In this document: piece by piece, positions 23,718-41,040 of the stretch | Numbering within the stretch: the first letter of the stretch is position 1 | Layout: every line of letters starts with the position of its first letter | NCBI RefSeq assembly: GCF_020614395.1 | Contig: NZ_CP085324.1 | Span: 1,555,564 to 1,619,563 of the forward strand | Reading direction: 5' to 3' | Source of the DNA: Salarchaeum japonicum | GTDB taxonomy: Archaea; Halobacteriota; Halobacteria; Halobacteriales; Halobacteriaceae | DNA length: 64,000 nucleotides | The notes under the pieces: generated by a model | What the model saw: the letters and a program-made list of their open reading frames with translations, nothing else | Databases searched by the model: none | Told to the model about the DNA's origin: nothing | Position numbers and translations under genes: made by a program

Positions 23718-23802
23718 GCGCGGGTCGCCAAGCCAGGCCAAAGGCGTAGCGCTTAGGACGCTATGGTGTAGACCTTCGCCGGTTCGAATCCGGTCCCGCG
23801 CA
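23718..23802 (+). tRNA. tRNA-Leu (anticodon UAG)
   Basis: Class II tRNA of 85 nt. Acceptor GCGCGGG pairs with CCCGCGC, and the D stem is GCC/GGC. The anticodon stem TAGCG/CGCTA encloses loop CTTAGGA, anticodon TAG. A long variable arm follows, then T arm GCCGG-TTCGAAT-CCGGT, with discriminator A. No intron is seen and CCA is not encoded. It is followed at once by a T4 run and by repeated copies of its own 3' end (see next entry). Confidence 0.93.
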
Positions 23803-24120
23803 TTTTCTGTCCGAGCGCCGCGAGGCCGAAAATCGCCGGAGTGGATTCGAACCAGCGTCAGACGTGCTCGCTCCGCTCCGCGCGCCTGACTGAGTTCGAA
23901 TCCGGTCCCGCGCATTCTACGACGAACGAAGTGAGGAGTGAATGCGCAATGAGTGGATTCGAGGTTAGCTGAGCGAGCGAAGCGAGTTCAGCGTTGGTTC
24001 GAATCCGGTCCCACGCATTTTCTGTCCGAGCACCGCGAGGGCGAAAATCGCCGGAGTAGATTCGAACTCAGTCAGACGAACGAAGTGAGTCTGGCGATAG
24101 TTCGAATCCGGTTCCGCGCA
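23803..24120 (+). repeat. Array of repeated tRNA-Leu 3' ends with hairpins
   Basis: No protein gene here. After the tRNA, three more forward copies of its T arm plus acceptor 3' strand end the units: 23894-23916, 23996-24020 and 24100-24120. The last two have one base changed each. Between them are degenerate inverted copies (about 23830-23853, 23940-23962 and 24043-24067) marked by GGATTCGA or GATTCGAAC. Each inverted/forward pair flanks a stem-loop (GTCAG/CTGAC; GCTGA/TCAGC; CAGAC/GTCTG). The segment after 23801 recurs after 24016 with few changes, so the unit is about 205-215 bp. Confidence 0.85.
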
Positions 24121-24168: not shown

Positions 24169-24186
24169 GTTTAGGCTCGCCGAATT
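24169..24186. promoter_or_regulatory. Imperfect second iron-box half site
   Basis: GTTTAGGC followed by TCGCCGAATT keeps the left half of the downstream palindrome exactly, but only five of eight bases of the right half. Spacing to the perfect site is 35 bp centre to centre. Two DtxR-type dimers could bind side by side. Confidence 0.4.
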
Positions 24187-24203
24187 TTCGAAACTGCTTT
24201 AGT

Positions 24204-24221
24204 GTTTAGGCTGGCCTAAAC
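24204..24221. promoter_or_regulatory. Iron-box operator (DtxR/SirR/Idr type)
   Basis: GTTTAGGCTGGCCTAAAC is a perfect 8-2-8 palindrome ending 4 bp before the start codon at 24226. The TTAGGCNNGCCTAA core resembles DtxR-family metal-regulator boxes known in bacteria and archaea. It overlaps the expected transcription start of a leaderless gene, so binding should block transcription when iron (or manganese) is plentiful. Confidence 0.7.
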
Positions 24222-24225
24222 AGGT

Positions 24226-25389
24226 ATGGATGAGAAATATCGGAGTCGCCGGGCGTTCCTGAAGGACGGGAGCGCGCTCGCCGCGGCCGGCCTGCTCGCC
24301 GGCTGTCAGAGCGGCGACGGCACGACGACCGAATCGACGACGGAGACGACGACCGAATCGACGACCGAGCAGACCACGACGACGACCGAGGACGCGTCGT
24401 ACACGGTGTCGATGGAGCCGGTGGGCGACGTGACGTTCGAGGAGGTCCCGGAGTCGTGGGTGCCGTACACGGGCGACTACGCGGACATGGGCGTGGCGCT
24501 CGGGCAGGCGGACGGCCTCGCGGGCATCGGCGTGCCCTCCCGGTACGGAACGCATCACTACGCCGAACTCGACGGCGTCTCCGTGGACACGGAGTCGCTC
24601 ACCACGCTCTATCAGGACGGGACGGGCAAGGAGATATTCTACTCCGTGGACGCGGACGTGCACGTCATCGACCCGAACTTCATGATGAATCGCCTGCAGT
24701 GGAGTCAGGGCGACGTGGACGAGATTTCGAGCGGCGTCGCGCCGTTCTTTGGGAACACCATCTTCACGCAGGTGTACGACTGGCACGACTACGAGTACTA
24801 CTCGCTGTACGAGGCGTTCGAGAAGCTCGCCGAGCTGTTCCAGGAGCGCGAGCGCTACGAGGCGTTCAAGGCCTACCACGACGAGGTCGTCGCGGACGTG
24901 CAGTCCCGCATCCCCGAGGAGACGCCCGAAATCGCGTTGCTCTACCCGGCGGGCGTTCCCCCGGACTCGTTCTACCCCTACCTCGTCGGTGAGGGGACGG
25001 CGTCGAAGCAGTGGCGCGACCTCGGCGTGGACGACGCGCTCGCGAACGCGGGCGTGACGGACGCGCAGGCGGGCGGCGCGACCGTGGACTACGAGACCCT
25101 GCTCGACATCGACCCGGACGCCATCGCGGTGCGGCTCTCCGGGAACATCTCGGACGCCTACTTCCAGGAGAACATCGTCTCCCACATGGAGGAGGACGAG
25201 GTGGCGAGCCGTCTCACCGCCGTTCAGGACGGCCGCGTGTTCTACGGCGGCCTCACCTACCAGGGCCCCATCATCCACTTGTTCCAGCTCGAAACCGCCG
25301 CGCGCGGCCTGTTCCCGGACACGTTCGGCGAGGACGAGGAGCTGTTCGACCGCGGGCGCGTCTCCGCCATCGTGAACGGTGAGTTCTGA
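24226..25389 (+). CDS. Iron/siderophore-type ABC substrate-binding lipoprotein
   Basis: A 387-residue periplasmic-binding-like protein. The signal SRRAFLKDGSALAAAGLLAGC is a Tat lipoprotein signal with the lipid cysteine near residue 26. A threonine-rich linker (about residues 32-55) follows, then a two-lobe class III binding fold. The order from TFEEVPESWVPYTGDYADMGVALG to IDPDAIAVRL and DGRVFYGGLTYQGPIIHL is that of Fe(III)-chelate or cobalamin binders. No permease or ATPase genes are adjacent. The perfect iron box at the promoter makes iron the likely ligand. ATG at 24226, apparently leaderless. Confidence 0.85.
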   Translation: MDEKYRSRRAFLKDGSALAAAGLLAGCQSGDGTTTESTTETTTESTTEQTTTTTEDASYTVSMEPVGDVTFEEVPESWVPYTGDYADMGVALGQADGLAGIGVPSRYGTHHYAELDGVSVDTESLTTLYQDGTGKEIFYSVDADVHVIDPNFMMNRLQWSQGDVDEISSGVAPFFGNTIFTQVYDWHDYEYYSLYEAFEKLAELFQERERYEAFKAYHDEVVADVQSRIPEETPEIALLYPAGVPPDSFYPYLVGEGTASKQWRDLGVDDALANAGVTDAQAGGATVDYETLLDIDPDAIAVRLSGNISDAYFQENIVSHMEEDEVASRLTAVQDGRVFYGGLTYQGPIIHLFQLETAARGLFPDTFGEDEELFDRGRVSAIVNGEF

Positions 25390-34572: not shown

Positions 34573-34676
34573 GAGCCAAGGGGGGGGGATTTGAACCTCA
34601 GTCACTCCGCTACGCTCCGTTCCCTGGTTCAGAATCCCACCTGTTGCTCTTCGTCCTCACTTCGTTCGGACAGAAG
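34573..34676 (-). repeat. tRNA-Thr 3'-end duplication module
   Basis: On the minus strand after tRNA-Thr, TTCTGTCCGA begins a hairpin (CTCTTC...GAAGAG around GTCC/GGAC, 34649-34680). Next comes a degenerate inverted T arm (GGATTCTGAACC region, about 34625-34640), then GACTGAG. A second forward copy of the tRNA tail (GGTTCAAATCCCCCCC, then CTTGGC) ends at 34573. A T5 run follows (34563-34567). The layout matches the Leu and Ser loci. Confidence 0.8.
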
Positions 34677-34750
34677 AGCCAAGGGGGGGATTTGAACCCC
34701 CGAATTCTCGATTACAAATCGAGTGCTTGAACCGCCCAAGCTCCCTTGGC
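34677..34750 (-). tRNA. tRNA-Thr (anticodon UGU)
   Basis: Class I tRNA. Acceptor GCCAAGG pairs with CCTTGGC, D stem GCTT/AAGC. The anticodon stem CTCGA/TCGAG holds loop TTTGTAA, anticodon TGT. T stem is GGGGG/CCCCC with loop TTCAAAT. Discriminator T, as expected for archaeal tRNA-Thr. No intron. A partial second copy of its 3' end lies downstream. Confidence 0.92.
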
Positions 34751-40816: not shown

Positions 40817-40898
40817 GGTGAGGTGGCAGAGCGGCCTATTGCGCCGGTCTTGAAAACCGGTGGCGCAAGCCTCCTGGGTTCGAATCCCAGCCTCACCG
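40817..40898 (+). tRNA. tRNA-Ser (anticodon UGA)
   Basis: Class II tRNA of 82 nt. Acceptor GGTGAGG pairs with CCTCACC, D stem GCA/TGC. The anticodon stem CCGGT/ACCGG encloses CTTGAAA, anticodon TGA. A variable arm follows, then T stem CTGGG/CCCAG with loop TTCGAAT. Discriminator G, the serine identity base. No intron. Downstream is a hairpin and a second copy of its 3' end. Confidence 0.93.
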
Positions 40899-41040
40899 CA
40901 TTCTGCGCGAACAGCGACGAAGACTCGTGGGTCTTCGTCGCCCGTGAGCGCGAATCGAAGACGGGGATTCGAGCAGACGAGTCGCAGCGCGAACGACGTG
41001 AGCGACCGTCTCGGCCGAGTTCGAATCCCAGCCTCACCGC
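40899..41040 (+). repeat. tRNA-Ser 3'-end duplication module
   Basis: A perfect hairpin CGACGAAGAC/GTCTTCGTCG (40915-40940, 10 bp, 6-nt loop) follows the tRNA. Next come a degenerate inverted tail (about 40945-40970, GGGGATTCGAG), a second stem region, and a forward copy of the tRNA T arm and acceptor 3' strand (41019-41040). A T4 run (41042-41045) ends it. No coding sequence is supported here. Confidence 0.8.

Follow-up and report, generated by a model that had tools for sequence, protein, structure and literature searches.

The tRNA-Leu(TAG) gene in the window (the whole stretch of 64,000 nucleotides of Salarchaeum japonicum DNA that was analysed) is followed by an array that is best read as three cassettes of a non-coding, palindromic family, ~70-140 bp in size, which extends across the haloarchaea and accumulates only 3' of tRNA genes. 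In this best reading the units are recombination cassettes that sit on tRNA T-arms, with the shape of integron attC sites and no integron integrase, an explanation to which, taken as a whole, we give an even chance. Units would be gained and lost, would exchange their cores and would, rarely, be inverted through recombination at the T-loop, with folded sites and tRNA tails as the partners, and we consider this about as probable as all rival explanations together. The observed basis is the anatomy of the units, their specificity for tRNA genes, the covariation and the polarity of their stems, their turnover, the sharing of their cores and their taxonomic range.

Here T refers to the tRNA tail, from the T-loop to the last (discriminator) base, T' to its inverse, h1 to the hairpin between T and T', and h2 to the core hairpin, which lies between T' and the following T. 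The order behind tRNA-Leu(TAG) is then T-h1-T'-h2-T-h1-T'-h2-T-h1-T'-h2-T (Table 1). The 21-nt tail, GTTCGAATCCGGTCCCGCGCA, recurs three more times in the forward sense with at most one mismatch, as an earlier note on this DNA had claimed, and 0 recurrences are expected from 100 shuffles. The three degenerate inverted copies that this note described as alternating with the forward ones are also present, and each inverted/forward pair does close a stem-loop, the three T'/T stem-loops folding far better than shuffled sequences (z-scores of -5.4, -4.0 and -4.7). The repetition of a unit of ~205-215 bp with few changes is seen as a 72-nt repeat with a spacing of 215 nt and an identity of 94%. The core of unit 1 is more similar to the other units as its reverse complement (0.56) than in the forward orientation (0.13). 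It is the only inverted core among 183 units, and such a single flipped core is expected if inverted arms rarely recombine.

Table 1. Coordinates of the tRNA-associated units of the window and of the candidate recombinase genes. Positions are those of the window, except for the last two lines, where the locus is named.
Feature	Position	Strand	Remarks
tRNA-Leu(TAG) gene	23718-23802	+	last 21 nt (23782-23802) are the recurring tail T, 0 mismatches; ARAGORN and Rfam RF00005
Unit 1, h1 spacer hairpin	23803-23832	+	TTTTC...GAAAA
Unit 1, T' (inverted tail copy)	23834-23852	+	19 nt, 84% complementary to the following tail; 12/14 in the arm comparison
Unit 1, h2 core hairpin	23853-23893	+	orientation flipped relative to all other units
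Forward tail copy 1	23894-23914	+	0 mismatches to the tRNA tail
Unit 2, h1 spacer hairpin	23915-23942	+	
Unit 2, T' (inverted tail copy)	23943-23964	+	most degenerate of the three
Unit 2, core hairpin	23965-23996	+	GCTGA...TCAGC
Forward tail copy 2	23997-24017	+	1 mismatch
Unit 3, h1 spacer hairpin	24018-24047	+	nearly copies 23803-23832
Unit 3, T' (inverted tail copy)	24049-24067	+	
Unit 3, core hairpin	24068-24099	+	has the typical 2x3 internal loop
Forward tail copy 3	24100-24120	+	1 mismatch
Unit behind tRNA-Thr(TGT)	34573-34640	-	degenerate; tRNA 34676-34750, - strand
Unit behind tRNA-Ser(TGA)	40961-41038	+	clear case; tRNA 40817-40899
Ser(TGA) unit, T'	40961-40974		
Ser(TGA) unit, core	40975-41018		
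Ser(TGA) unit, tail copy	41019-41038		20/20
Xer-like tyrosine recombinase gene, L297	1494-2660	-	
Xer-like tyrosine recombinase gene, L298	1285-2298	-	

A survey of the tRNA flanks of the window also finds units behind tRNA-Ser(TGA) and tRNA-Thr(TGT), and no such unit at tRNA-Arg(TCG). This plan is also found, with other hairpin sequences, at tRNA-Leu(TAG) in further haloarchaeal genomes, and in a sister species (G001, L218) a 72-bp unit stands behind this tRNA in three perfect copies in tandem, apparently after a recent expansion. Because the same architecture exists at other tRNAs and in relatives, a simple local duplication is ruled out. Of 98 relatives, 62 contain a strict T'-core-T pattern (GATTYGAAC, 27-57 nt, GTTCRAATCC). 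The tRNAs that precede the matches are those for Pro, Glu, Val, Asp, Thr, Leu, Gly, Met, Asn, Ser, Ala, Arg and Lys, and the forward arm of a match repeats the tail of the tRNA before it. Chance palindromes are also ruled out, since the reversed control pattern has 0 matches in all genomes scanned. The matches L056-L085 lie 3' of tRNAs, L075 having been pushed away by an island.

Own-tail copies within 400 bp downstream are found for 17 of 44 tRNAs in genome G000 and for 22 of 43 in G008, and upstream for one tRNA in each, and foreign tRNA tails are found in the same flanks in 35 of 1180 (G000) and 10 of 956 (G008) cases. Nearly all forward copies are preceded by an inverted partner, with a mode of 10-12 matches out of 14 as compared with 7-8 for shuffled sequences. 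When both arms are required, units are counted behind 15 of 43 tRNAs in G000, 11 of 42 in G001, 21 of 44 in G008 and 16 of 34 in the sampled part of G002; across these four genomes, roughly one third to half of the tRNA genes bear units and more than half have none. The idea in the earlier note of a repetitive module built on a tRNA tail is borne out by these own-tail units behind many haloarchaeal tRNAs, and the tail duplications on whose presence in relatives the note's idea depended are indeed found there behind many tRNAs.

Among 295 Halobacteriota genomes, the strict pattern occurs in 42 of the 53 Halobacteriales and in none of the 242 genomes outside this order. When one conserved core family is compared with 84,980 prokaryote species, 29 stretches are found, all of them in Halobacteria (genera including Halobacterium, Halorubrum, Haloarcula, Natrinema, Halococcus, Halorussus and others), and each of the 29 is preceded, at a distance of 32-198 nt, by a tRNA on the same strand, whose tail it carries. 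No unit is found in the phage collection and one is found on plasmids (Haloarcula halophila), and a scan of IMG/VR gives 43 stretches, which are mostly ordinary tRNA genes or chance matches, plus a few palindromes from an unknown host; a viral or plasmid origin is rejected on these grounds. The viral-collection contigs L098, L103, L110, L111, L124 and L127 have near-perfect palindromes, GGGGCATGGATTTGAACC...GGTTCAAATCCATGCCCC, with the same idea of a T-arm-bounded hairpin in a different host, and a scan of five of the six contigs finds no tRNA.

The consensus fold of the units consists of a T-arm stem of 11-13 bp, a 2x3 internal loop (CT/TYC) and a 5-bp helix (GNNAG/CTNNC). The helix is usually followed by a T-T mismatch, and beyond this come a CG pair step and an apical part that varies. 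The stem covariation that the earlier note had named as a test of its proposal is present: three positions left free by the search pattern are paired in 29 of the 29 core matches, with both states being common (permutation p < 5e-5), and two-sided changes at the covarying positions are seen in 42 cells, compared with 19 in shuffles. The fold is also polar: of 138 units from many core families, 107 have the longer strand of the first internal loop on the tail side and 7 have it on the opposite side, while 24 have two strands of equal length.

Strong folding and covariation are also properties of an RNA-level element, in which the pre-tRNA trailer would fold in alternative ways, T' pairing either with the T before it or with the T after it, and the hairpins would act as a processing signal, a decoy or a terminator, and the position of the units, always downstream of the tRNA and co-oriented with it, fits this explanation. 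Structural RNAs with comparable covariation are usually rich in G-U pairs. The next-helix pairs of the distinct 2x3 cores comprise 341 Watson-Crick, 2 G-T and 0 A-C pairs, and the scarcity of G-T pairs in this covarying helix leans to a function of DNA rather than RNA, as does the excess of C-A (57) over G-T (31) when all core mismatches on the sense strand are considered. The two innermost arm positions lean the other way, as G-T wobble is tolerated on the tRNA-sense strand (T-G 14 and G-T 21 in 121 units) and an RNA fold would also yield such wobbles; since the G-T and A-C counts disagree between arms and cores, no strand of the fold is claimed. The turnover of the units among congeners with identical tRNAs, and the many tRNAs without any unit, also count against an RNA-level role. 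Within the Leu(TAG) array, no Rfam family besides tRNA itself and no terminator-like site is found, and these negative results, together with the few G-T pairs and the fast turnover, weigh against the tRNase Z decoy and the terminator array suggested in the earlier note. A function in RNA is judged improbable, and DNA may well be the acting form of the units.

Congeneric species with an identical tRNA set differ in the presence and number of units. The joins are clean at Glu(CTC), Asp and Ser(GGA), where the flank found directly after the tail in one species is found after the second tail in its congener, and not clean at Leu(CAA) and Val(GAC). Cores are shared between different tRNAs: in G008 the identical core CAGGGAGGAGCTTTGCTCCGACCGTG is found behind Lys, Arg and Leu tRNAs, and a 38-bp core is identical behind Pro and Ser tRNAs. 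In pairs that share a core, there are 220 arm positions at which the two tails differ, and T' agrees there with its own tail 135 times and with the tail of the partner 18 times. These shared cores with locally matched arms indicate that cores move or convert while arms are local or are made so. In 21 pairs one core is combined with unrelated h1 hairpins, and no shuffling of h1 among different cores is detected at the strict threshold. Copying from mature tRNA by reverse transcription is set aside, as T' generally has no initial CCA complement (only Pro looks so).

An integrase alone fails to explain a local T' with a shared core, and the recombination reading therefore also needs T-loop exchange, palindrome correction or selection. 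The same observation is accommodated by replication fold-back and gene conversion, in which template switching would make and correct the hairpins and ectopic T-arm conversion would spread the cores with no dedicated enzyme. A quasi-palindrome that is corrected against its own other arm would have a locally matched T', which accounts for the local sequence in both T and T' around a common core and for the palindromy of both h1 and h2. Such correction should, however, erase the asymmetric 2x3 loop, yet the polarity is preserved (107 versus 7). Fold-back also does not account for a left boundary that is fixed at the T-loop, for units that occur in tRNA 3' flanks only, or for the absence from all 242 genomes of the sister lineages, and it is considered an unlikely origin of the units.

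In every copy the left edge is the T-loop, and the copy runs up to the discriminator base. The T-loop is one of the dyads where many tRNA integrases cross over (PMC8371274). This edge, together with the attC geometry of the folded T'/T, favours recombination at the T-loop, which would be site-specific and may be carried out by a tyrosine-type recombinase acting in trans. Tyrosine integrases leave tail copies at tRNA 3' ends, and the gains and losses are cleanly bounded by tails, so that the units could also be imagined as stacked att scars of ordinary tRNA-targeting integrative elements that have since been deleted; this explanation, which leaves the inverted partners, the conserved core and the covariation unexplained, is decidedly improbable. 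Genuine islands at these tRNAs can be compared directly. In G023 (L186) tRNA-Leu(TAG) is separated from an intact unit by a 16-kb island, the repeat of which is ~51 nt long and extends from the anticodon arm to the 3' end. In G008 (L229/L301) a stretch of ~55 kb, adjoined by a tyrosine integrase, lies between tRNA-Arg(TCG) and its unit, with an att match of ~14 nt, and the corresponding unit of G002 is directly 3' of the tRNA. The islands thus have other boundaries and adjoin the units, displacing them intact, which implies that the units are not simple att scars. This agrees with the earlier note, which had set aside simple attachment-site remnants because of the inverted partners; the core is a further argument.

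According to the recombination reading, a cassette would end in a hairpin-forming site, with inverted and direct copies of the host-tRNA tail around a conserved polar core. On folding of one strand, the T' and T arms would pair into a double-stranded T-arm, which would be followed by the asymmetric 2x3 loop, the 5-bp helix and usually the T-T mismatch. Crossover in the T-loop, either between two folded sites or between a folded site and a tRNA gene, would insert, delete, swap and occasionally invert cassettes, as integrases treat integron attC sites, and the tail copy would leave the tRNA intact after every event. A recombinase acting on the units, a circular form or an active event was not seen in the genomes analysed.

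In attC sites, the outer boxes are paired and are followed by a spacer that is unpaired and asymmetric, by an inner helix and by an apical part that varies, the structure being kept more than the sequence, with polarity. The units resemble this arrangement, as far as general knowledge of attC goes, in forming a tandem array behind a single anchor in which each cassette ends in an imperfect palindrome, and their sequence conservation is low but their structural conservation is high, as the loop asymmetry and the covariation indicate. In contrast to attC, the outer box takes the form of a T-arm that agrees with the local tRNA, and any tRNA gene is an anchor. The units also differ from integron cassettes in having no ORFs, the tail-to-tail spacers examined being ~70-240 bp of hairpin sequence. 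The integron integrase IntI (TIGR02249) is not found above the curated cut-off in any of the 59 genomes that were searched for it, where only generic tyrosine recombinases are present, and the system is therefore not an integron; archaeal integrons have been described (PMC9668308).

A Xer-like tyrosine recombinase, mostly single-copy and scoring below the XerA cut-off, is present in 24 of 24 Halobacteriales and in 0 of 124 other Halobacteriota sampled (E 1e-20). Its range fits that of the units, yet any haloarchaeal innovation would fit equally, and it is only a candidate for the enzyme. A more far-reaching version of the recombination reading, which is offered tentatively and is possible rather than probable, is that of a haloarchaeal class-specific integron-like system, in which any tRNA gene is an anchor and a tyrosine recombinase acting in trans would read the folded single-stranded T-arm hairpin and shuffle non-coding cassettes between tRNAs via T-loop crossover.

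The tRNA att sites of archaeal tyrosine integrases (SNJ2, pNOB8 and SSV families; PMC8371274) share with the units an identity block from the T-loop to the tRNA 3' end and a direct repeat of this 3' end; the units differ from them by the inverted partner and the core hairpin, by being gene-free and 70-140 bp long and by occurring at many kinds of tRNA, and islands at the same tRNAs use the other att lengths given above. PATEs and the small mobile repeats SMR-A/B, whose mobilisation is unknown, have been described in Haloquadratum (PMC3119063). The SMRs are likewise non-coding, palindromic, mobile haloarchaeal repeats of ~80-110 bp, but PATEs and SMRs are described as having no target duplication and as being dispersed or inside other elements (PMC3119063), whereas the units are bounded by tails and lie only behind tRNAs. 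REP/BIME elements and MITEs are also short, palindromic, repeated and extragenic; the units differ in having no transposase-type ends or dispersed copies and in having arms that adopt the local tRNA sequence. Instead of the tRNA-independent dispersed copies with their own terminal repeats that characterize MITEs, PATEs and SMRs, all 29 core matches are behind a tRNA. A CRISPR or casposon-type array is set aside, the spacers being palindromic and mutually related. The nearest published elements are PATE/SMR, archaeal integrons and tRNA att sites, each of which misses at least one tested defining feature.

No description of the units was found in the open-access literature searched, although other journals may hold one, and an order-wide element that lies behind a third to half of the tRNA genes in the genomes surveyed thus appears to be undescribed. 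The units would partly explain the fluid tRNA 3' flanks of haloarchaea, and they complicate the calling of att sites in these flanks. If the recombination reading is true, integrons are joined by a second cassette system based on folded hairpins, with tRNA genes as its anchors; if the RNA reading is true, the units represent a large unstudied layer of archaeal tRNA trailer structure.

Two further observations concern sequences near tRNA genes. In genus g2 (L166, L234), a longer repeat, CACTTTTTCCGAGGGGCTGC...GCCCCTCGCAAAAACTTGGGGAAAAAG, is found behind several Gly tRNAs, one of them without tail units. In the window, two 16-bp copies, GTTTAGGCTCGCCGAA and GTTTAGGCTGGCCTAA, lie within 24169-24219, closely upstream of a lipoprotein gene (24226-25389); we take these copies to resemble a DtxR-type iron box, and the lipoprotein is presumably the binding protein of a metal or siderophore ABC transporter.
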